64,000 bases of DNA from Eutreptiella sp. 'Long Island Sound 2002' (lineage: Eukaryota; Euglenozoa; Euglenophyceae; Eutreptiales; Eutreptiaceae), in the NCBI GenBank assembly GCA_964036045.1, contig OZ038380.1, positions 11,925,629 through 11,989,628 of the forward strand, written 5' to 3'. Under the pieces are notes generated by a model, which made no database searches, was not told the DNA's origin, and saw nothing but the letters and a program-made list of their open reading frames with translations. The number at the start of each line of letters is the position of its first letter. The stretch's first letter is position 1. The translations under genes and the position numbers were made by a program. Of the stretch, positions 26,294 to 57,747 are shown one piece after another.

Positions 26294-26298
26294 GTTCT

Positions 26299-26327
26299 CT
26301 TAGGCGGCTCAAGTTGCATGGTCAAAA
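26299..26327 (+). repeat. Element D left terminal inverted repeat
   Basis: This 29-bp repeat begins CTTAGGCGGCTCAAG and ends TGGTCAAAA. It is the exact reverse complement of 33,149-33,177, and the match stops sharply after AAAA on both sides. Confidence 0.95.
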
Positions 26328-27284
26328 TGCGCCCAAGACTGCCTCTCTACGGCACTGCGAAAAAATAGTCCTTTTGGGGGGGACGTAAAACGCAAGAACC
26401 AAAAATCCCGTGAAAAGCAATTAACCGGTCCATTTTCCTTTATTTTCAACAAAACCGACTGCCCGGGAAAATGATTTATTTCCACCAGAATGAACTTCTT
26501 TTTTGGGAAACCCACGACTTTTTGTTTCTTCTACCATTTATGCTTTGCAATAAAAACACCCGTGAGTGTAAGTGCAAGGTCTATTGTTTGTTTCTTTTTC
26601 TCGGGTCTCTTGAGTTGCCTTGATTGGCAAAGCCTGCTGCTTGTTTGCTTGCTTGTTTCACACGGTGCCTGCTGGTTTTACCGGAAGCCAAATCACTCCT
26701 CAAAGCAGTACATGCAAGACACCCATATCCCACAGCAGTAACGTACAAGAGTCAAATATGTCGTGAACCGGATCCAGTCACAGTAGCAGTGTTGATGGCG
26801 GCACCAATAGCAGCAATGGCGGCAAGAGACAATTCAAGGGCTCATCATACCCTATATAAATACATAGCATCAGGGGCTGAATTGTCTTGCGGGAATACTA
26901 TGCACGCATCGAAAGGTCGCAAATATTATGCATGCACCGAGAAGCGCTCACAGAAAAGGCGGGAAATTATGGTCACTATTACCCGGCGCGACCTCTGTAG
27001 ACGAGCGCTTCTGTCGCTAATGGTAGCGTTTGACGGCCGCAGTTACAGTGAGCTGTCAATCTTTTGGAAAACCATTTTTCGAAAACCATGTTGCACGCAG
27101 CACCACAAGAAGCATTTTTTGGTACCACTTCTTTGCACGAGGCCTCGCGCAAACACCAACACAACAGCGCAATAAAATGCATCACAGAGAAAAATGTGCC
27201 GCACAAGGTGACAGCATAAAGGTCGTCGAAGAGGAATGCATAGCGCGAGCCCTCGCACATAATATATCAGAACAAGCGAAGAAA
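26328..27284 (-). other. Element D left subterminal region
   Basis: About 950 bp lie between the left TIR and the stop codon of the ParB-like gene, probably its 3' untranslated region plus the transposon end. It contains two degenerate copies of the D palindrome (27,135-27,150 and 27,243-27,258). A plus-strand open frame at 26,624-27,175 has no recognisable domain and overlaps both palindromes, so I do not call it a gene. Confidence 0.5.
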
Positions 27285-30068
27285 TTACTTTTTCTTCGGG
27301 ACAGCTTGCATCTTAGAACCCATAGCCTTAGCAACGGTCGTGTTACCCTTAGGAGGTGGCTTTGCGGGCGCGCTTCTTGGTTGGGACTGACGGGCTGGCT
27401 GCTTGAATGGAGCTCGGGCCCCGGTTTCCTCGGACCTCGGCTTCGCTGCCACTTTCTTCGCTGCCTTGCCCTGGGAGACCTGCGCTTCCTCCTCCTCTTC
27501 TTCCTCGCTCTCCTCCTCTTCATCCCCATCGCTCTCGTCGGATTCTGCACCGGTAACCGACTTCGCTGCCTGAGGCTTGGAGGCAGTCTTCTTCTTCTTG
27601 GGGGCTGGTTCCCCACCAGTAGACTTCCGCTTTGCAGGGGCCAGTGCTTCTGCAGCTTGACCTTTCTCAACAGTCTCTTCCTCCTTCAGCGACAACGCCT
27701 CATTACCCACCTTGTCATCGCAAACCCATAGGGGAATACCACGGTTTGCCCAGTTGGCTTGCTGGTCCCAATCACCAGACGCGTGCAGTTTCGACTCTTG
27801 TGTCAATACGTGGTTCAACTGAGTCTGCACCCTGTTGACCCAATCGGAGAGATTGTCGGAGGTAACACCAAGAAGGTACATGCGAGAATCCAGCTCGACG
27901 GACGCGATCTTGCACACCAGATCCGGCTGATGATCAATGAACACAAACGCAGGCTTGAAGGTCTTATCCTGCTTCAGGTGAAAGAGGTGAGTGTCGAAAT
28001 ACCACATAACCGTCGTTATCGGAAGGTGACCGCCAAATTCAGCAGGCTCCATCTCCGCTACTTGAGGAGGTCAAAACGTCAGATAATTCGGAATCTGCAA
28101 TGAGGGAGAAGTTATTGCGCGAGGCCTCGCGCAAAGAGCGGACGTAATGAGGGAATTATACCTTTCTCGACGGGCTATCCGATGACGCCACCAGCAACCA
28201 GCGAACGTCAAACGTTGTAAGATCCCCTGCAGGCTTCGGTTTGACTGGCCAACTGAAGATGGGAATAAGCAACATGTGGCCAATGCGCGGCGCGTTGAAA
28301 TCATCGTTGAGACGCCTCTCTGTTTCCGTTTCCAGCACGTGGAACATGTTCTCAGCAACAGTTTTGGAGCCGCAGACAAGGGTATCGGCACGCGCCATCT
28401 TTTCATACAGCCAGGCTGGGCACATCGTCTCAGGAGCAAGATGTTCAAATATGTCGCCGTTGATGATAATCAGGTTCTTGTCAATCTCCATGAACCGCTT
28501 CGGAGGTTCCTGGTTCAACGCTGCAATTCGGGTCGCCTTAACTGTGATAGTTTGACTCAATGATGGATCCTGCTGTTCCACTGTCTTGAAGTCACCAGTA
28601 ACGCCAGCAGGTGGGGGGACCACACGGCTCTTGGTAGGCTCTTGACCCAGGAGTTTTTGGACGTTGAGGATTTTCAGAGGGGCGGGTTTGCCTTTCTCTG
28701 CCACCTGCCACAGTGGTGCGCGAATCATGGATTTCCATGCCGGCCATGGACCGCGACTTTTGCCTTCAGACTCACGCCAATAGCCCCATGTACCAAGAGT
28801 CACCTTCAGGGCAGGCCTTCCAAGTGCAGCAACCTCTTTGCGGGTCCGCATGTCTTTGGCTAAACAACAGAAGTGGAGAAAGTGCGGCGCACTGATGCAG
28901 AAATGGAACCCAAGTCGCGTCGATGGTACACACCTTTCTCAGGTCGTACGTACTGGCCGTTGTGCGGGTGGTCCAGATGCATTGAGACCCACTGCTCAAG
29001 GATGATGTCGTCAAACGAATTCTGCAAGGTTTCAAGGGTTGTTTTTTCTTCCTGCATCACTTCTGCCACTTTGTTGTAGAACTCCGGCAACAGGATCCCG
29101 TCCAGTTTCTTCAGCGCTTTCTTCGTGACTTTCTCCCCTTTGTCGTGGAACTTCTGCAGACCTTTCACAGCTTCCGGACAAGCATAGTAGGCAAACGTCA
29201 TAAAATCTTTCCACAATTTATACGTTTTGTCCTGAAAGTGACAACGTTATGCGCGAGGCCTCGCGCAACGAAGAGCGCCGAAACAACGATTAATGAACAT
29301 ACGAATTGACCAGGCTGCTTCAGTTCAGCGGTTGGAACCAGGGCACTCATCTGCACAGCATCCACAATGGCGATCTTGAGATTGTTGTACGTGTCAGGTA
29401 GGCCTCGCCGCCGCTGATCTTCAACACATCGAATGAGGTTATCTGCTGCCTCATACAGCGGAATTGGCTCAATGTCTTGTGCGCTTCCTTGTGCTTGTCC
29501 CGCCAGCTTTGCACGGAAGGCCCACGGTGTCGTAGGCTTTAGAATATCGGCGATGCATGTAGTATGCCACTGCTGCAGATCCAGACACGCGGTGCGTCGC
29601 TTCACCCGAATCTTCGCAACCGCTTCCACGCTGTGCTGTCCAGATACACACCAATAATCGCCATCTGCAAATATGAGACACGTCTTTGCGCGAGGGCTCG
29701 CGCAACGAGAAGAGCGAAAAATCGGTTGGTAACATACTATTATCTTCCCAGAGAACGACGTGTAATGGGCCTGTTGGCGGTGCTGCTTCGAGTGACTCAA
29801 TACGCTTCTGCAGTAACTTCGCATCTCTCCGTCTGATCTGCCCCTTTGTCTTCTCCTGGTCGATTCTCACGCTGTCCAGCTCAACCTCCACCTGCCTCCC
29901 GTCCGGCTTCAGGTGGTCCTCGATGTCAGTACCCAAGGTTAAGCCAGGATCTGGTGTTTCCTTCTTCTTACGCCCCTTCTTTGGTGTTCCAGCCTCCGAT
30001 CCTGAGGTCCCAGGGTCATAGTCGGTATCTTCTCGTTCCTCGGCTGTTTTTTGGGCGGGGCTTGCCAT
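27285..30068 (-). CDS. Element D multi-exon gene with ParB-like N-terminal domain
   Basis: Five exons on the minus strand are inferred from splice signals and matching phases: 30,068-29,738, 29,664-29,303, 29,231-28,934, 28,859-28,162 and 28,094-27,285. The first four join to 563 codons. Residues 58-130 show the ParB/sulfiredoxin pattern: VELDSVRID, then GQIRRRD, SLEAAPPTGPLHVV and, across the first splice, GDYWCVSGQHSVEAVAKI, the position of the G-R/H-R-x-x-A nucleotide-binding motif. The middle (about 130-560) has no motif I know. Exon 5 holds a TGA at 28,071-28,073 after seven codons, then stays open for about 260 codons with an acidic run and a Lys/Pro/Ala-rich tail like nuclear proteins. 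Either the protein ends there or the TGA is a lesion. A DNA-binding or nuclease role in transposition is inference. Confidence 0.6.
28095..28161 (-). other. Intron 4 of the D ParB-like gene (palindrome-bearing)
   Basis: It runs from GTATAATTCC to CTCATTGCAG, 67 bp, phase 0. It carries CGCTCTT followed by the perfect TTGCGCGAGGCCTCGCGCAA. The size and internal layout match introns 1 and 2. The alternative acceptor just before ATG 28,052 would avoid the TGA but gives an atypical 109-bp intron. Confidence 0.55.
28860..28933 (-). other. Intron 3 of the D ParB-like gene
   Basis: It is 74 bp, with a GTGTGT donor and an acceptor after CTGTTGTTTAG, phase 1 on both sides (rebuilding an Ala codon). 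It lacks the common palindrome but contains a different one, AGTGCGGCGCACT, at a similar position. Confidence 0.65.
29232..29302 (-). other. Intron 2 of the D ParB-like gene (palindrome-bearing)
   Basis: It is 71 bp, from GTATGTTC to CACTTTCAG, phase 0. It contains CGCTCTTCG directly followed by the palindrome GCGCGAGGCCTCGCGC. Removing it fuses PGQF to DKTYKLWKD without a stop. Confidence 0.7.
29665..29737 (-). other. Intron 1 of the D ParB-like gene (palindrome-bearing)
   Basis: It is 73 bp, from GTATGTTACC to ATATTTGCAG, phase 1. It contains CGCTCTTCTCG followed by a one-mismatch copy of the palindrome. Splicing joins LWEDN to GDYWCVSGQHS, which completes the ParB-like domain and is the best support for the intron. 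Confidence 0.75.
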
Positions 30069-30303
30069 TCTGCGATAAGAGGAAAGCCTGTATTGAAGGA
30101 AACATAACATTAAAAATGGGTAAAATCGTCGTCGATAATGCATATTTCGGGTGCTTTTAGCGAATACGAGTACAGTATGGTTGAGAATGCAAAACTGAAG
30201 GGGCACGCCACTGTTTTTGACTGACAACCTTGCGTGAGGCCTCGCGCAAGAGAGGGGGTGTACTAACCTGTTGTTTCATGCTGTTTGCGCGAGGCCTCGC
30301 GCA

Positions 30304-32289
30304 TCACTGCATGTTCTCCAATCTTCTTCGAACGTTTCGCAGCGTGTTGACCTCTCTCTGTTCCTCTAACACACTGCGTTGGGGGATCAGCTCCGACAGT
30401 TTTCGCTTGAAACCAGCCTTAAGTGGCCCCTGCTGCGTTAGCACCAACAACACAGACACAAGGACTTGTTTGTAGTGGTTAGAACCCTTTGGAATTAGAA
30501 GAGACGGTGGAAAGTTAGGTACACCCCTGCGCGGCCAATGCGCCTGAGTTGCACAAGTAGGCTCAGCACACCACCTAACCCAAGGCACATATACACGCTC
30601 TGCGTTCAAGTAAGCAGTTAACCGCTGACGCACGGAATTGACAAAGGAATTGGGGATTTTACAGACGTTCACCCTGTGACCTTCTTTGCGGATAGTGATG
30701 AGCTGATACAGATCGTCAACATCTTCAATGGTTACTGCACCTCTGTTCTGGCCCTTCTTTGTTACAAGGCTGGAAAGCAGACTTTCGCAAAATTCCTCGG
30801 CAAAAGCCTGTCCAGGCATGGCTGTGTGCCACGCAGTGTGGCACACTAGCGCAGTTGCAACAGTGCGTTCGTATTTTAAAAGTGTGTCCCCCATGTTCAA
30901 ACGGTCTAACAGACACATAACAATCTGCAATCCCTCAGAAGCAAAAACACCCGTGTTGGCCGTCTCCCCAGCCCAGTTGCACTGCCTAACGAGGTGTCCC
31001 AGGTCCAGTAACATGGGACAGTATTGTGTTAACAGAACCTGCATGGCCTTACACACAGCGTAACGGAGGCGACTTCGCCGATTTGCAGGACGTGCCAGCT
31101 CAAGGGAACGACATTTTCGGTTAAGGCGCCGTATGTGGGGGCCCATACCCAACAGCAGTGCACCAACAGTTATCTCCATTGTGATCAGCTTGGGAAAACA
31201 GGGGACTGTGTCACCGCTGCGCAACAAACCCTTACGGAAAAAAGTCACAATCGGCCAAAATGAGCGAAACGTTTGTGTAACGCAAAATTTGTACGCGTGC
31301 CAGAAACCATATAATATAGGGTGTGAACGCAAAAAAAGCCGGACGTTCCAACCCGTTGTTTTTTCACCGTACATCATCTTACAAATGCGGTAATGGATGT
31401 TCTCATCACATAAGACAGGGACAACTGGTCGGCTGTGTTGCGCCAAGTCCCTAGTAAATTGCAGTAGGTTAAGAAGCGATACGTTGCCGCTTACCTTTTC
31501 TTTGCTTAGACAGAGGGGTCGCCAATGTGGTCTCTTGGCAGGTACAGGGCGAATAATGTCAAGCGGTGCCCTAATGTTTCGCACAACAGGTCGCGTGCTT
31601 GCAAATCCTAGGTCCTGCAGGATACGTGCAAACGTTCCCTCGGTGTTTCCCAGCATGCGTGCAACAATAGGAACACGCCGTTCAAGGTCTTCCAGGCTAG
31701 GATGACCATGCCAGTAGCGGGGTGCATCCTTGAGTAGCAACACAGCCAACGCTGTTGCGTTCAGGCTTTTGTCGTTCTTGTCGGGATTTGTGGTAAACTG
31801 TTTGTTGTACCAGTTGTCCATCCACAACACAACCCACTGCTGGTAAATTGTGTCCCATGTAGTCTGTAACCTGACTGCAGCCTTCTCCTTCAGCGAAGGT
31901 GCGCTGTATCGCGCCAGACCTGACCTTGCTAAAATGCGACGCTGCGCCCTACTTCCCTCTACCGCAACAACCGACTTTGGTTTTCCCTGGTATGGAACTG
32001 CGCGGTGGCGCATCAGCAAATAGAGGCGCCAGGCCTCCTCTATCAAAACACCAACCCATCACTTCCCTTCTGCCGCAATCGCCTTTTCAACGCTGCAACG
32101 CGTTTGTTCATTTTTGCGCAGACGCAGAAAAAACACAAACAACAATCGCGCGCCCTCGTCCCCCTGTTCTAGCCCTTCCCACAGTTCTTCTGCCGTGTGG
32201 TACGGCGGTTCCTCTGAGCAGACATCGCGGAAAACTCCGGATGCTGCGGCCACTGTCTTCTCGAGGTCCACCTCTTTTCGCAGGGGCAT
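30304..32289 (-). pseudogene. Element D orphan gene, 661 codons with one internal TGA; possible transposase
   Basis: ATG 32,289 opens a 76-codon frame that ends at TGA 32,059-32,061; the same phase then stays open for 584 more codons to TGA 30,304-30,306. Four codons (WVGV) link the TGA to the long open part, so I treat it as one gene with a nonsense codon. The sequence has no family I recognise. Features that recall DDE/RNase H-fold transposases are acidic residues in hydrophobic contexts (VVLWMDN near residue 158, VPVLCDENIHYR near 295) and a W-H-x-x-K cluster (LYGFWHAYKF near 330). An Arg/Lys-rich segment around 400 and the C-terminus are basic. It is the longest frame in D, so a transposase role is plausible, but that is inference. 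Confidence 0.5.
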
Positions 32290-33148
32290 TGTTGCTGCAA
32301 AAAATAATTGCGTAAATGTATCTGCGTAAAAATCGCTGTTTGGAAAACTTTCTTGATTTCCAACATCAACCTGTCACTCAGTATTCGCGCGACCGATTAT
32401 TCTGTGATTCGCTTGTCGCATGCACCATTTTCGGTTACCTGTAACTGTCTGGTGATCCCACATTTCACTAGTTAATCCTGATTGTGGTACCCAGTTGCGG
32501 CGCGCTACCATCGCTGTTGGGCAGTGAAGTCAGTGGTGACCACAGTATGAAAACCGGAGATGCCGGCGGGACCTGTATGGGCGCCCATGCAGCAGCGCCG
32601 CATCAAGGGAACGTACATACTGTGTAGCTGGTGGATCTGTCCAATTTTCGTTTTTATGAACGCTTGTGACCTCCATTGCGCGAGGCCTCGCGCAATGATC
32701 ACCAAAACTTTAATGTTTTTCATGCGCCGTTCCATGCGCGAGGCCTCGCGCTTGAAACTGCAGTTTGTTCCGGAACATTTATACTTTTCAAGATTCTTGG
32801 GTACACCATTGTTGCAGTTTATTCAATAATAGATCTATCTCTATCACACAATCCTGATAATGTTACTAAGTTACGCGTATAAATACGACAGCGTTCCATT
32901 TTTCGACAACCTGCCTAATGCGTCGTGCTGTAGCACATTAATCTGACGCAAATGAACGTCGTTGCGCGAGGCCTCGCACAAAGAATAGTCACAAAACAAT
33001 ACTTTTCCCTGTCTCGCCCATGGGACACATCATTCTTATAGAAATATTTAATCCACCATACTTGTTTGCGACGCTTTTATAATATCCAGCAAAACAAATA
33101 TTTTTCGATGCCTTTGGAAACCTGTCATTTTCCTACCTTTTCCTTCGT
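32290..33148 (-). other. Element D right subterminal region
   Basis: About 860 bp lie between the right TIR and the orphan gene start, AT-rich, with three palindrome copies (32,678, 32,736 and 32,964). It probably contains the promoter of the orphan gene. TTTTTTGCAG just before ATG 32,289 could be a splice acceptor of a 5' leader intron. No open frame with recognisable domains is present. Confidence 0.5.
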
Positions 33149-33177
33149 TTTTGACCATGCAACTTGAGCCGCCTAAG
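33149..33177 (-). repeat. Element D right terminal inverted repeat
   Basis: It is the exact reverse complement of 26,299-26,327 and ends GCCGCCTAAG before the GTTCT target duplication at 33,178-33,182. Confidence 0.95.
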
Positions 33178-34382
33178 GTTCTCCACTTCCTCCACCGCGG
33201 TCTGCACGAAGAAGGCGTCGTGCTCAGTTTCGTCGTCTGAGTGGATAGAGCTAGGTAGCTCAGATAGTCCACACTCAGAGACTCCATCAGGAACAGGTAC
33301 ATGACAAGGAGAGTTGGGGGCGTTGGTGTCAGTCACGACGTACTCATCTCCTCCGGGTGTAGTTTCAACAGCATCTTGAGGTCGTAGGCGATCCTTCAAG
33401 TCACCCAAGGCGAGTCCATCGCTTTCTCGTTGTATAGCCTGGACCAGAGTAGGGTCCAGGTCTTCCCAGGGGATGGTGGTAAGACTTCCGTCCACCACGC
33501 TGAGCATACTCCCCCATCCGGGCTTCCCAATGGGCGTCTTGCGTCCCAGAGGCACGTAGATGGCCTCATCAGGTAATCGCACCGAGCTGATAGTCAGCTT
33601 GTCAAGGAGGGTTCGCCAGTACTCGTTGCCCCCATGGGCTCCCCAATCGGGGGAACACAGGACCATACGGGAACGTTCCAAGGCCACCTTGGTTAGCACC
33701 TTCCCCAGTTCACTGAATCTGGGGTTCCCGTAGGCCATCCCGAAAGAGGGCCAGTAAGATTTGTAGCTGCAGTTCTTCCCCTTGCTGCAGTATAGGTCCA
33801 GTACATGCTGCTTGTCGCTGGCGAACAGCTCCACACTTAGGTCTTCTCGAGAGTAACCCAACTCCTTCAGACCTTGGTCTAGGACTTCCCCCAATAGTTG
33901 ATAGTCCTCAGTTTTGGAGGCCGCCATCATGTTAGAGGGCTCCTCCTTCGATAGCCTCAGGTAACTCGAGGTATGTTCCGACTGCTCCAGTGGCACAGAC
34001 TCTCTGCCACTGCCGTGGTCCACGTAGAGAAGGTAGGGCGCTTGCAGCGTCAGGGAATGTATCTGGGAGTGCTGGACGAAGAAGTCAGTCCCCAGTACAA
34101 AGTCGAAGGCATCAGTGTCCATCACATAGAACCGGTGGGCGATAGTCCTGGAGCCCATAGGTACCTCCACTTCACAGTCCCCGCAGCTGTGCACCACATG
34201 TCCATCCCCCATGCGTATAGCGGCGGTGGTCATGGTGTTCTTCAGGCTCCCACAAGGTAAAATTCTCTTGGCCACGATAGATATTGTGGCGCCAGTATCC
34301 AGTACCCCCAGGTATTCACGTCCCCCTAGGGTCGGATACGTACCCAAAACACCAGGTCTTGGGTGCCACCAGAGCGTCCCCG
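33178..34382 (-). pseudogene. Element C protease and Dam-like domain (cut by element D)
   Basis: The frame lies in -1 phase relative to gag and is open back to about 34,381. Counting from 34,347, the protease motif LGVLDTGATISIV (DTGA at residue 17) identifies a retropepsin. About residues 165-250 carry VELFAS, then MAYGNPRFSELGKVLTKV and VLCSPDWG, the layout of a Dam-like methyltransferase fold in which the NPPY-type motif reads NPRF. An acidic linker leads to EEVEN, where element D interrupts. After excision the frame continues at 26,293 as AEYVAPLKP into reverse transcriptase. The last 14 codons before the apparent stop at 33,133 belong to the D terminal repeat. Confidence 0.8.
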
Positions 34383-42532: not shown

Positions 42533-44850
42533 TGAAGCCAGATCGGACCCCCGTGGCCATCTTGGGGTCACTTCGGGTGTGTATCTATGTGCCGGCAAGC
42601 CGCCATTGGCTGATATCATACTCTCCCATCCGCCTGACCTAACCTGATGTGATGGTGTGATAGGTTTGGCCATGAGCGGCGATATTCAATACCGAGGCGC
42701 TGCCAGCTGAGATTTATATATCAGAATATCAGGAATCAACAGGGTTCTTTTATCATAATGCTTCCGTAATTTTTCAGCCTTCCGTTCGGATTGTCAATGT
42801 ATCGGCGACTGTCAGTTGGTTCGCGATTTTGCGGTAACCGATTGGTTAACTGTCATTTGCAGATATTTTGGCGGAAACCCGGATGAAGGGTCAGATTTCA
42901 TCAGTAAAGGGTCTGTTGCTTCTGCAATTTTCAGATTATACACTCGCAAAATTAATCCGATTTTTTCAGACTTTCAGAATCGGATTTTCGACTTCGAGGT
43001 CGCCGCACTTGATATGATGAATCTCGAGTGGTCATACATTTTTCCCAAATCACGAATCAACCTTCCTTTTTTTGTGCCCTTCATTTTGCTTGGAGATATA
43101 GTCGAAACAAAGGTGATTCGTGAGGCCACTTTGAAGAATCATATCTCCGGCTCACGGCGGGGAATATCAATTGTGAGAATTGGGTTGGAACCGCCTTGGT
43201 CTCAACTTAATTTAGGAAGCATCAAACGCCTTTGTTGTGTACACATGCCAGGTGTAGTAAGGGATAATGGTCAAAAGGGTAGAAAGTGATATATAACTCT
43301 TGGACCGTGCAACCGAATATATTAATGCAACTTTCGAGTGTACCGCATGAGTGTTGGTGTTGCATAGAAACTTTTCTTTGGGTTCCTACGTATTTTTAAC
43401 GTGAAGTTATGTCCATGGAGGGGCATGGCATATCATGGTGGGAGCCACGTTTTGAGGGTATGTGTTATATGCATGGTATGTGCTTCAATATGCTCACGCC
43501 CATGTTATATATCTCCGTTTGTAGGAAGACGTATGGAGTCATACGGGGCAAGGGCTTTGCCCATGTCCCAATGGTGAGCTCCATAGCGTTAGACTAAGTC
43601 TACCGCTCATATAGTGCATGTGGGAGGGCTTACGGAGCGACCCACAAGCGCCACTATCAATTTTCCCATTTTCATGGTGCGTGTTGGGAGGAGGTTTGAA
43701 GGTGTCCCTATGCCACCATGTGGGGATCCAAGTAGGGGGATTGTTTGCAAATGGTCCCAAGCAATTGTGTTTTGAATCATATGTTGATACCATGGGTGAG
43801 CGAAGTTATATACTGTTGTAATTATCTTGAATTCGGTATTATTTGCATGTTTTTGACCTCATTTTATGCTCATTTTTGTATTTTATGTGCTCAACTGGTC
43901 GGCTAACAGTAAAGTGCCTAGAGATTCGTGAACTATGGTATGTTGCTTATATGTTGGCATATGCTACGGTGTTGCACATCACCATATGCCGGATCAAGTG
44001 GTCACTTTGGCTTGGCACATGAGGCCTCACAAAATTAGGTCTCAAATTCATGAGTTGACTTGTGAAGAATGTCATGTACATAACCGGAGGGGTTTCGGAG
44101 CAAATGATGGGATATTCTTGGGCATGGATCTTTGGTCTATATCACCCTTGTATTTTACTTTCCGGTTTGACACAGGCATGGAGCATTTGAATATTTGCCG
44201 TATGCACTTTTGAGTATATAATTGATTTTGGGCATTATGGTGTGATTTGCCTGATTTTGCCATGTTGTGAGGTCATCTTCATGGGGCAGTTCTCCAAGTC
44301 CAATCGACTCCAAGTCCAACCAAAGTTATGTCAGGGTAGGGCATGGTCCTGAGTGCCACTCTAGGCCATGACACCCCACCTCCCCCATTGGGCTAGGACT
44401 TAGAGGCTAGGGAGGGAACACATTTTTGGGGTTTATGTAGTGACTTTTGACACATGGCATTTAGCCATCTTATTTGACTGGGTTCAGGGCATCATGTTGG
44501 TGAGTCAAGGGAAGGTCTTGAGTCCAGGGAATGAGTGGTCTCTGGCTGTGATTGTGTAGGTTTCCATCTTTCTCCAACTTTGCTTCATTTGTGTTCATAT
44601 GCCAATTTCAGGGCTTTCCTCTTTGGTGCAATTCTTGTACATGCCCGCCACCGTGAGACAACCGGTGTGCTGAACGGAAGCCCGCAGTGTGGATCGGATT
44701 TGGATTGTGCTTGGGTATTACAAGGGTTTGTGTGAAGGAGTTTTTTTCTATTTTTGTTGAAATGCAGACCCTGGTGAGGAGCAAGACCCTGGGAGTGACG
44801 GGTTATGGTGGAACGGGTACAGCAGGGGCCGGTCCTGGTAGGGACCTTCT
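42533..44850 (+). repeat. Element A 3' LTR (runs directly into a second gag)
   Basis: It aligns with 2,777-5,210 over its length and starts TGAAGCC after the polypurine tract. It does not end at a target duplication or flank; instead it continues in frame into a gag homologous to that of A. Bases from 43,524 onward are also part of the left arm of the large inverted repeat. Confidence 0.8.
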
Positions 44851-45712
44851 GACCAGCCCGGTCAGGCTGTGGTCAGCTGCAGATTCCGAGGGGCACTCCG
44901 AGGGCTATCAGACAGCTTACCCTTCGGAGTCGGAAGAGAGAGCCAGACCGCCCACAAGGGCGAACACGGCCCCCGAACCCAGCCTGGAGCATGACACCGA
45001 GGCGTTGAAGAGGCCTGCCAGAGCCAGAACTGCGCCTGTGGCCCGGCACACGGAGCCAACGCGGGATAGCATGGGCCACACACCCATGGCGGAAGAGTCC
45101 GAGGCGCCGGGAACCGTGGGATGCGCCGGATCAGGTGGAAAGCACGTTGAGTGCCACTCCGAGCACGTATCCTTCCTCATCGGCAAGTACCCAAAGATGG
45201 GGATGGACGCCATCGTGCAGCACCTCGACCGCCTGGACAACGCGAAGGACGGCCTAGTGGAGGACGTCGCGGGGATCCTGGATGACCAGTCGGCAGCGGA
45301 GAGAGACATGGCGGAGCTGCGAGCGGAGCAGGACCAGTACCGGCGGAACCTGGAGATGGCCCTGCAGAAGCAGCAGCGAGTGGTGGACAGCCTCCTCCAC
45401 CTGGTGGAGGACATGTCGGGACGCCTGAAAAGGCTAGAAAAGTTACAACCCCTCGCCTCGGGTCCGGAGCTCCCGGCAAAGCCTGCAGCGGCAGAGCTGG
45501 TGGAGCGGGTTAAGACCCTCAGGAGCGCCATGGCGAAACCAATGGGCGGCCCTGCAGAGGCACCTTACGCGCCCCCGCGTGTTGACCCGGGTGCGCTGCT
45601 GACGCGTTCCCGTGGGGGGCCTGGCCACGGGACGCTGCGGTGGACACGCACAAGCAAGCAGGCAGGCAAAGCACTGCGCTCGCAGGGGCATCATCACGCT
45701 CGTGTCATGTGA
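44762..45712 (+). CDS. gag: Second A-family gag frame with internal deletion (intact ORF)
   Basis: ATG 44,762 lies in the LTR end (MQTLVRSKTLGVTGYGGTGT) and the frame stays open for 316 codons. Compared with the A gag at 5,123 it lacks about 345 bp (equivalent of 5,211-5,555), including the primer-binding site, yet keeps frame and joins GRDLL to SPVRLWSAA. It keeps the coiled-coil segment (HVSFLIGKYPKMGMDAIVQH and following) and, unlike the A copy, has no frameshift near GAGCTGGTGGA. Homology to A ends near 45,598 and the last ~38 codons are unrelated. It could be a 5' fragment of another element copy or a non-autonomous LTR-gag derivative. A mirrored copy lies at 55,359-56,309. Confidence 0.6.
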   Translation: MQTLVRSKTLGVTGYGGTGTAGAGPGRDLLTSPVRLWSAADSEGHSEGYQTAYPSESEERARPPTRANTAPEPSLEHDTEALKRPARARTAPVARHTEPTRDSMGHTPMAEESEAPGTVGCAGSGGKHVECHSEHVSFLIGKYPKMGMDAIVQHLDRLDNAKDGLVEDVAGILDDQSAAERDMAELRAEQDQYRRNLEMALQKQQRVVDSLLHLVEDMSGRLKRLEKLQPLASGPELPAKPAAAELVERVKTLRSAMAKPMGGPAEAPYAPPRVDPGALLTRSRGGPGHGTLRWTRTSKQAGKALRSQGHHHARVM

Positions 45713-55358: not shown

Positions 55359-56309
55359 TCACATGACACGAGCGTGATGATGCCCCTGCGAGCGCAGTGC
55401 TTTGCCTGCCTGCTTGCTTGTGCGTGTCCACCGCAGCGTCCCGTGGCCAGGCCCCCCACGGGAACGCGTCAGCAGCGCACCCGGGTCAACACGCGGGGGC
55501 GCGTAAGGTGCCTCTGCAGGGCCGCCCATTGGTTTCGCCATGGCGCTCCTGAGGGTCTTAACCCGCTCCACCAGCTCTGCCGCTGCAGGCTTTGCCGGGA
55601 GCTCCGGACCCGAGGCGAGGGGTTGTAACTTTTCTAGCCTTTTCAGGCGTCCCGACATGTCCTCCACCAGGTGGAGGAGGCTGTCCACCACTCGCTGCTG
55701 CTTCTGCAGGGCCATCTCCAGGTTCCGCCGGTACTGGTCCTGCTCCGCTCGCAGCTCCGCCATGTCTCTCTCCGCTGCCGACTGGTCATCCAGGATCCCC
55801 GCGACGTCCTCCACTAGGCCGTCCTTCGCGTTGTCCAGGCGGTCGAGGTGCTGCACGATGGCGTCCATCCCCATCTTTGGGTACTTGCCGATGAGGAAGG
55901 ATACGTGCTCGGAGTGGCACTCAACGTGCTTTCCACCTGATCCGGCGCATCCCACATTTCCCGGCGCCTCGGACTCTTCCGCCATGGGTGTGTGGCCCAT
56001 GCTATCCCGCGTTGGCTCCGTGTGCCGGGCCACAGGCGCAGTTCTGGCTCTGGCAGGCCTCTTCAACGCCTCGGTGTCATGCTCCAGGCTGGGTTCGGGG
56101 GCCGTGTTCGCCCTTGTGGGCGGTCTGGCTCTCTCTTCCGACTCCGAAGGGTAAGCTGTCTGATAGCCCTCGGAGTGCCCCTCGGAATCTGCAGCTGACC
56201 ACAGCCTGACCGGGCTGGTCAGAAGGTCCCTACCAGGACCGGCCCCTGCTGTACCCGTTCCACCATAACCCGTCACTCCCAGGGTCTTGCTCCTCACCAG
56301 GGTCTGCAT
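55359..56309 (-). CDS. gag: Mirror copy of the A-family deleted gag frame
   Basis: It is the inverted duplicate of 44,762-45,712, open over the same 316 codons. Compared with the left copy one codon differs (Thr to Asn in the EAPGTVGCAG phrase, a two-base change). It has the same LTR-internal start, coiled-coil region and unrelated C-terminus. It carries no independent evidence of function, because its conservation follows from the recent duplication or from assembly. Confidence 0.55.
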   Translation of the reverse strand: MQTLVRSKTLGVTGYGGTGTAGAGPGRDLLTSPVRLWSAADSEGHSEGYQTAYPSESEERARPPTRANTAPEPSLEHDTEALKRPARARTAPVARHTEPTRDSMGHTPMAEESEAPGNVGCAGSGGKHVECHSEHVSFLIGKYPKMGMDAIVQHLDRLDNAKDGLVEDVAGILDDQSAAERDMAELRAEQDQYRRNLEMALQKQQRVVDSLLHLVEDMSGRLKRLEKLQPLASGPELPAKPAAAELVERVKTLRSAMAKPMGGPAEAPYAPPRVDPGALLTRSRGGPGHGTLRWTRTSKQAGKALRSQGHHHARVM

Positions 56310-57547
56310 TTCAACAAAAATAGAAAAAAACTCCTTCACACAAACCCTTGTAATACCCAAGCACAATCCAAATCCGATCCACACTGCGGGCTTCCGTTCA
56401 GCACACCGGTTGTCTCACGGTGGCGGGCATGTACAAGAATTGCACCAAAGAGGAAAGCCCTGAAATTGGCATATGAACACAAATGAAGCAAAGTTGGAGA
56501 AAGATGGAAACCTACACAATCACAGCCAGAGACCACTCATTCCCTGGACTCAAGACCTTCCCTTGACTCACCAACATGATGCCCTGAACCCAGTCAAATA
56601 AGATGGCTAAATGCCATGTGTCAAAAGTCACTACATAAACCCCAAAAATGTGTTCCCTCCCTAGCCTCTAAGTCCTAGCCCAATGGGGGAGGTGGGGTGT
56701 CATGGCCTAGAGTGGCACTCAGGACCATGCCCTACCCTGACATAACTTTGGTTGGACTTGGAGTCGATTGGACTTGGAGAACTGCCCCATGAAGATGACC
56801 TCACAACATGGCAAAATCAGGCAAATCACACCATAATGCCCAAAATCAATTATATACTCAAAAGTGCATACGGCAAATATTCAAATGCTCCATGCCTGTG
56901 TCAAACCGGAAAGTAAAATACAAGGGTGATATAGACCAAAGATCCATGCCCAAGAATATCCCATCATTTGCTCCGAAACCCCTCCGGTTATGTACATGAC
57001 ATTCTTCACAAGTCAACTCATGAATTTGAGACCTAATTTTGTGAGGCCTCATGTGCCAAGCCAAAGTGACCACTTGATCCGGCATATGGTGATGTGCAAC
57101 ACCGTAGCATATGCCAACATATAAGCAACATACCATAGTTCACGAATCTCTAGGCACTTTACTGTTAGCCGACCAGTTGAGCACATAAAATACAAAAATG
57201 AGCATAAAATGAGGTCAAAAACATGCAAATAATACCGAATTCAAGATAATTACAACAGTATATAACTTCGCTCACCCATGGTATCAACATATGATTCAAA
57301 ACACAATTGCTTGGGACCATTTGCAAACAATCCCCCTACTTGGATCCCCACATGGTGGCATAGGGACACCTTCAAACCTCCTCCCAACACGCACCATGAA
57401 AATGGGAAAATTGATAGTGGCGCTTGTGGGTCGCTCCGTAAGCCCTCCCACATGCACTATATGAGCGGTAGACTTAGTCTAACGCTATGGAGCTCACCAT
57501 TGGGACATGGGCAAAGCCCTTGCCCCGTATGACTCCATACGTCTTCC
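56221..57547 (-). repeat. Partial A-type LTR, minus strand, cut by the gap
   Basis: It matches the complement of 43,524-44,850, the distal 1.3 kb of the A 3' LTR. The remaining LTR would lie inside or beyond the N run. Confidence 0.9.
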
Positions 57548-57747
57548 NNNNNNNNNNNNNNNNNNNNNNNNNNNNNNNNNNNNNNNNNNNNNNNNNNNNN
57601 NNNNNNNNNNNNNNNNNNNNNNNNNNNNNNNNNNNNNNNNNNNNNNNNNNNNNNNNNNNNNNNNNNNNNNNNNNNNNNNNNNNNNNNNNNNNNNNNNNNN
57701 NNNNNNNNNNNNNNNNNNNNNNNNNNNNNNNNNNNNNNNNNNNNNNN
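57548..57747. other. Assembly gap of 200 N
   Basis: A run of exactly 200 Ns separates the right inverted-repeat arm from the satellite array. The round size suggests a placeholder of unknown true length. Confidence 0.99.

Follow-up and report, generated by a model that had tools for sequence, protein, structure and literature searches.

What kind of mobile DNA lies at positions 26299-33177 of contig OZ038380.1:11,925,629-11,989,628 (forward strand, assembly GCA_964036045.1) from the euglenophyte Eutreptiella sp. 'Long Island Sound 2002', and how might it recognise its own DNA? A sequence-only reading of this 64,000-nucleotide stretch, referred to here as the window, had described the segment as a terminal inverted repeat (TIR) transposon encoding a ParB-like protein and a second protein of no recognised family. 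What we add to that reading is a set of some ten non-coding palindromes arrayed through the element, whose core is unchanged between two families of the transposon despite saturated synonymous sites. The explanation that we favour, and consider probable, is that the window holds one dead copy of a recently active TIR transposon with two genes, open reading frames (ORFs) A and B, and 5-bp target duplications, whose palindromes would be bound by a protein that the element itself encodes.

Ends, empty sites and copies of the element

The limits of the window copy, and of a smaller insertion nested within it, are as follows.

26299-33177: element (window copy), 6,879 bp
26294-26298, no strand: target-site duplication GTTCT, left copy, supported by empty sites
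26299-26327, plus strand: terminal inverted repeat, ORF B 3'-side end, 29/29 with 33149-33177
33149-33177, minus strand: terminal inverted repeat, ORF A 5'-side end, 29/29 with 26299-26327
33178-33182, no strand: target-site duplication GTTCT, right copy
26562-27047, no strand: nested insertion of 486 bp, window copy only, with GTGAG at 26562-26566 and 27048-27052 and ends TGTAAGTG / CAGTTACA

Removal of the element and one GTTCT leaves a single 1,147-codon frame across the flanks. When the joined flanks (146 bases) were searched against the organism's own 2.28-Gb assembly, all 40 scored places, from 736 first-look candidates, were 100% identical over the whole join. These uninterrupted joins show further copies of this gypsy element in which the site is truly empty. 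The mobility claimed earlier is strongly supported by the perfect ends, the GTTCT duplication, the restored gypsy frame and the empty sites.

The expected further TIR-bounded copies were also found. An exact 23-bp end occurs 2,348 times in the assembly (1,203 forward and 1,145 reverse, with 0 for the backward control), and a left-end query gave 40 scored matches of 97-100% identity from 934 first-look candidates. Twenty of these 40 places were fetched; three of them (L012, L014 and L020) showed no second end in the stretch and were excluded, while the short loci L001-L008 surround the same left-end matches and were not recounted. All 17 two-ended copies that were kept carry exact 5-bp duplications, as had been read from the window. 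A 6-bp duplication in the window, GTTCTC, was ruled out, as the sixth base is possible in only one of the 17 other copies. With inverted ends, a duplication of constant length, empty sites and multiple copies, the element is a TIR (class II) DNA transposon.

Twelve of the 17 copies measure 6,353-6,394 bp, and the other five are shorter (1,321, 2,217, 3,210, 3,517 and 4,715 bp); the latter have duplications of their own, so they were either mobilised in trans or lost sequence once inserted. The window copy is longer (6.88 kb against about 6.39 kb) because of the 486 bp listed above, which we read as a nested insertion because GTGAG stands on both sides. The 12 full-length copies and the window copy share 97.2-99.2% mutual identity, and the transposon is recently active. 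The two genes of the window copy are each broken by an in-frame stop, at codon 77 in ORF A and codon 571 in ORF B, and this copy is therefore very probably dead; neither the stops nor the nested insertion figured in the sequence-only reading. Among the 13 full-length copies ORF A is open in two and ORF B in seven, and two copies (L017 and L027) have both genes open.

Two side observations concern shorter forms. The nested insertion has imperfect inverted ends, TGTAA(G/C)TGC, and a 5-bp duplication, and is perhaps another TIR family. Exact ends stand 1,703-1,710 bp apart in 11 of 20 end pairs hand-picked from the first places listed, all on contig C1 (for example C1:2186266-2187974), pointing to a common short non-autonomous form.

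Two genes and a second family

Both genes lie on the minus strand of the window.

30304-32289, minus strand: ORF A, 661 codons, candidate transposase without a known family, stop at codon 77 here
29738-30068, minus strand: ORF B exon 1
29303-29664, minus strand: ORF B exon 2, starting just before GQH, ParB-like motif
28934-29231, minus strand: ORF B exon 3
28162-28859, minus strand: ORF B exon 4
27285-28094, minus strand: ORF B exon 5, acidic and lysine-rich tail, stop at codon 571 of 833 here

The 661-codon frame of the sequence-only reading stands (32289-30304), with the qualification that it is interrupted by the stop in the window copy. Its proposed partner, a spliced ParB/sulfiredoxin-like protein, is indeed spliced (30068-27285, with four introns that are 67-74 bases long and have GT-AG borders); open copies encode 832 residues. 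Its identity as a ParB was not confirmed, as described below. Recoded codons or short introns were ruled out as explanations of the two stops: the codon-77 site is a sense residue in 39/39 homologue alignments that cover it (113 proteins compared), and ORF B is open throughout in seven of the 13 copies.

With scoring applied in each search to the 8,000 candidates sharing most words, ORF A gave 107 relatives at an expectation value (E) of 1e-3, and a 12-row profile raised this to 304 at 1e-2 (120 listed). Two clusters, with 146 and 277 member sequences, are in keeping with an amplified element, and one relative (P0104, 41% identical) comes from a 1,935-base contig with a different source label. 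In another predicted protein, P0031, ORF A is fused with the C-terminal region of ORF B, which probably reflects an internal deletion. The first 570 residues of ORF B found only six relatives, because database proteins end at its introns or read through them.

A relative 46% identical to ORF A, P0114, marks a second family with different ends. Its search scored 68 places from 8,465 candidates, of which 65 are without a stop and 48 share one score. The two places fetched hold copies of 8,272 bp (L029) and 6,859 bp (L030), flanked by the 5-bp duplications CCTCA and GGTAG (2/2) and bounded by ends CTTAGCCCACGCAAACTGCACCC.. that match each other at 28/30 positions; L029 contains a 1,412-bp tandem duplication within the element. 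ORF B of this family has 881 residues, is 35% identical and is split by four introns at corresponding places, so the two-gene, four-intron plan is common to both families, as is, in our reading, the end pattern CTTAG......CAA..TGCA. The proportion of nonsynonymous differences (pN) between the families is 0.38 for ORF A and 0.45 for ORF B, against proportions of synonymous differences (pS) of 0.80 and 0.76; since pS is saturated and pN is lower, both proteins are constrained.

We infer that ORF A is the transposase, because one gene should be, because ORF A is better conserved between the families than ORF B (46% against 35%), and because nine acidic residues (D44, D158, D226, D244, E264, D295, E296, E372 and E452) are kept in all six longer proteins compared. 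As the transposase, ORF A would probably be a DD(E/D) enzyme that has diverged. Eukaryotic TIR elements are for the most part DDE-based, and together with the conserved acidic residues this makes it a serious alternative, only somewhat less than an even chance, that ORF A belongs to a named DDE superfamily from which it has diverged very far, the element then being a new family, not a new superfamily. The searches speak against this view: 33 relatives of ORF A returned from Pfam only five unrelated families at E 0.06 or worse, and no PDB sequence matched at E 10. Viral contigs gave 16 stretches fitting the pattern of the ORF A alignment and 0 relatives. In favour of a named superfamily, ORF A by eye resembles DUF6589 proteins (DN..., D-E-N-I-H); a literature search for DUF6589 found nothing. 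As to an RNase H-like DD(E/D) transposase, ORF A matched no such family in Pfam, and its AlphaFold model, with a mean predicted local distance difference test (pLDDT) score of 42.6, is unusable.

For ORF B, the resemblance to ParB is a lead resting on the motif GPL-V--WED-NG-Y-V-(S/N)GQH--E---KI, followed by -DILK---PW--RAK-AG--Q------IPL-EA-DN, whose order resembles ParB_N by eye. ORF B has no ParB model match in Pfam, NCBIfam or PHROGs, and a comparison of hidden Markov models (HMM-HMM) with five ParB proteins gave a probability of 0.1 and E 0.66, with the domain start aligned and the GQH part unaligned. The AlphaFold prediction of its N-terminal part, made from a 7-row alignment with one intron read through, has a helix and strand order that resembles ParB_N, which at a mean pLDDT of 36.2 is no evidence. 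When the ParB_N model was run against the assembly (14/14 candidates scored), it found nine places. These lie exclusively on high-numbered contigs, and no ORF B copy on C1-C27 is among them. The two ParB genes inspected on those contigs look bacterial (L031, which in our reading adjoins a ParA-like frame, and L033, whose protein shares 47% identity with a ParB from a Rickettsiales plasmid), and both loci are endosymbiont or contaminant contigs in the assembly.

The earlier statement that neither protein belongs to a recognised family holds so far, with only weak matches in Pfam, PHROGs, NCBIfam and PDB. The best Pfam values, E 0.0099 (prothymosin) and 0.014 (DDHD, CDC45), lie in the acidic tail of proteins related to ORF B and are disbelieved, as are the best NCBIfam (E 0.026) and PHROGs (0.11) matches; for models that have a curated cut-off, no match approaches it. 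ORF B gave eight PDB sequence matches, of which the best, ribosomal protein L35 over ORF B 63-156 (E 0.048), was taken as chance.

The roles of the two genes could also be reversed, with ORF B as the cutting enzyme, a ParB-like nuclease, and ORF A as an accessory protein. The ParB superfamily includes nucleases, both genes are constrained, more copies keep ORF B open than ORF A, and two relatives described below (L034 and L035) have ORF B with ORF A undetected. We nevertheless regard this arrangement as improbable, as the ParB membership is itself unconfirmed and conservation is higher in ORF A. Since most of the copies are dead, the number of frames that are still open is also a poor guide to the catalytic gene.

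Palindromes outside the exons

The palindrome core TGCGCGAGGCCTCGCGCA, of 18 bp, occurs at nine sites with at most two mismatches in the 64-kb window, all nine inside the element, with 0.00 expected; a degenerate copy makes the tenth site.

27134-27151, no strand: palindrome 3' of ORF B, 1 mismatch
27242-27259, no strand: degenerate palindrome 3' of ORF B, 3 mismatches, tenth site
28116-28133, no strand: palindrome in ORF B intron 4
29250-29267, no strand: palindrome in ORF B intron 2
29687-29704, no strand: palindrome in ORF B intron 1, 1 mismatch
30231-30248, no strand: palindrome between the two genes, 1 mismatch
30286-30303, no strand: palindrome immediately 3' of the stop codon of ORF A
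32677-32694, no strand: palindrome 5' of ORF A
32735-32752, no strand: palindrome 5' of ORF A, 1 mismatch
32963-32980, no strand: palindrome 5' of ORF A, the closest to the element end on this side, 1 mismatch

All 13 full-length copies of the first family have ten sites each at up to four mismatches, and L030 of the second family has ten at up to three. In ORF orientation the sites start at 198, 426, 484, 2875, 2930, 3474, 3911, 5045, 5919 and 6027 of 6,393 bp in L027, and at 199, 424, 610, 3103, 3159, 4138, 4511, 5293, 6338 and 6497 of 6,859 bp in L030. No site is coding in either copy, which would have a chance of 6e-6 and 1e-5, respectively, if placement were even and independent. The 18-bp core is exact at seven of the ten sites in L027 and eight of the ten in L030, and beyond these sites a comparison of the element DNA of the two families gave few short matches, for example 49 bases at 80%. 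The flanks are family-specific (TT..AA at several sites in the first family against AG..CT in the second), and the intron sites shift from introns 1, 2 and 4 to introns 2, 3 and 4 with the total unchanged. Each core holds four CpG, a possible link between the palindromes and methylation. A palindrome search of viral contigs gave 0.

Further relatives came from a search with 98 scored places, of which three were fetched. In L034 and L035 four to five sites each, at up to three mismatches, surround a decayed ORF B; this ORF B is about 64% identical near the N terminus, and its intron palindromes are conserved. L036 is an older relative whose site in intron 4, TTGCGCCAGGCCTGGCGCAA, has both sides changed together; this is a single site in a single copy.

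Because about ten sites are spread along the element and lie outside its exons, recognition of the whole element is the best explanation. Under the mechanism that we propose, ORF A would act as the transposase, and an element-encoded protein would bind the palindromes along its whole length, probably as a dimer. This protein is more likely ORF B, with its ParB-like motif near the N terminus and its acidic and lysine-rich tail. Binding would let the element recognise its own DNA, and silencing might then be countered, as VANC does for VANDAL elements, or the element might be folded and its ends paired for excision.

Several points weigh against this proposal. The choice of ORF B over ORF A as the binder is tentative, and in neither protein was a catalytic or DNA-binding domain recognised, both AlphaFold models being unusable. 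The ten sites of the first family are one inherited set and not 13 independent observations, and the confinement of the palindrome to the element holds for this 64-kb window only. The L036 stretch has just the one site, with no other at up to four mismatches, and ORF A was undetected in L034 and L035 (8.2 kb fetched). Finally, the intron sites could act in RNA.

This last point can be extended to all the palindromes, which would then work as RNA hairpins that aid splicing, end transcription or protect the transcript, instead of as DNA to which a protein binds. Their positions in introns, just past the ORF A stop and beside coding regions would suit such a role; against it, the outermost sites stand beyond the coding regions, at distances from the two element ends of about 200 and 350 bp, though possibly still within transcripts, and intron 3 of the first family and intron 1 of the second have no site. 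On balance we consider an RNA role unlikely.

Two other readings draw more heavily on ParB. A ParB-like motif together with a repeated palindromic site is the anatomy of ParB-parS, and ORF B bound to the palindromes could segregate, or spread along, an excised circular form of the element. This partition scheme appears very improbable to us, as neither protein has a ParA family match in Pfam, the ParB fold is unconfirmed and the circular form is an assumption. A broader proposal, to which we give a low probability, is a new superfamily of eukaryotic DNA transposons with a ParB-parS-like self-recognition of its own, in which the protein would load on the roughly ten palindromes, introns included, and organise or protect the element.

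Binding by an element-encoded protein is the reading that we prefer. How a transposon may mark its DNA as self can be approached directly through this array, because it repeats one short, exact site and both candidate binders are encoded in the same element.

Elsewhere in the window, two nearly identical 351-codon frames in opposite orientation (44657-45712 and 55359-56414), about 10 kb apart, form an inverted duplication. A run of 200 N occupies 57548-57747, and long frames of a repeated, satellite-like unit resembling TVVNHYYTQNWGLTMCFLRQCCTH extend over about 57.5-63.6 kb.

Comparison with known systems

Among the named superfamilies, Transib elements have 5-bp duplications and CACWATG ends; the duplication fits and the CTTAG ends found here do not. 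CACTA/EnSpm elements duplicate 2-3 bp. The excerpted fungal survey gives them CAC..GTG ends and a 3-bp duplication (PMC12730594), and the CTTAG ends and 5-bp duplications rule them out. The same excerpt lists 8 bp for Zisupton and Dileera, 7 bp for hAT7 and 6 bp for IS3EU (PMC12730594), and a Kyakuja-Dileera-Zisupton (KDZ) assignment, for which 8 bp would be expected, was rejected on 5 bp in 17/17 copies of the first family and 2/2 of the second. A hAT assignment was rejected for want of a hAT Pfam model match; duplication length alone would allow hAT5, which duplicates 5 bp where hAT elements usually duplicate 8 bp (PMC12730594). A very diverged member of a named superfamily is possible, and we treat the element, with its unplaced two-gene plan, as a candidate new superfamily that is undescribed as judged from the literature searched. 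It is a good candidate in that neither protein could be matched to a curated family of the searched libraries, exact ends number in the thousands and open copies exist.

The accessory gene has parallels. Fungal KDZ, hAT7, IS3EU and EnSpm transposons that bear TET/JBP similarly carry an accessory gene that may counter silencing, according to the excerpt (PMC12730594); Pfam recognised no TET/JBP domain in the proteins of our element. ParB-like transposon proteins are already published in algae, where transposons including Sola1-1_Ec32 of Ectocarpus carry ParB-like/methyltransferase proteins (PMC12477816, in part). Like our element, Sola1-1_Ec32 is a eukaryotic DNA transposon with an accessory protein termed ParB-like, thought there to bind and modify its own element; it differs in combining Sola1 with a methyltransferase domain, where we find a transposase candidate without a family and a palindrome array (PMC12477816, in part). 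ORF B, unlike such ParB-methyltransferase proteins, has no Pfam methyltransferase match, and the [DNS]PP[YFW] motif is absent from ORF B of both families. Bacterial ParB-parS shares with our element the likeness of the ORF B N-terminal motif and a repeated palindrome, and differs in that here no significant sequence or profile match and no ParA match was found.

For self-recognition through a repeated motif, CACTA-element proteins reportedly bind subterminal repeats, and VANDAL elements, which are Mutator-like, have VANC. In the excerpted Arabidopsis study the VANC motif is, like our palindrome, short, mainly non-coding with introns included, and variable between subfamilies, and it is rare in other elements (PMC5735166). 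The VANC21 motif has 9 bases and forms tandem repeats, unlike the palindrome of at least 18 bp at about ten scattered places described here; VANC binding is proven where ours is inferred, and it is the anatomy alone that agrees with VANC-type anti-silencing (PMC5735166, in part). If a protein of the element does bind these sites, the transposon would add a further case of motif-based self-recognition beside VANC.

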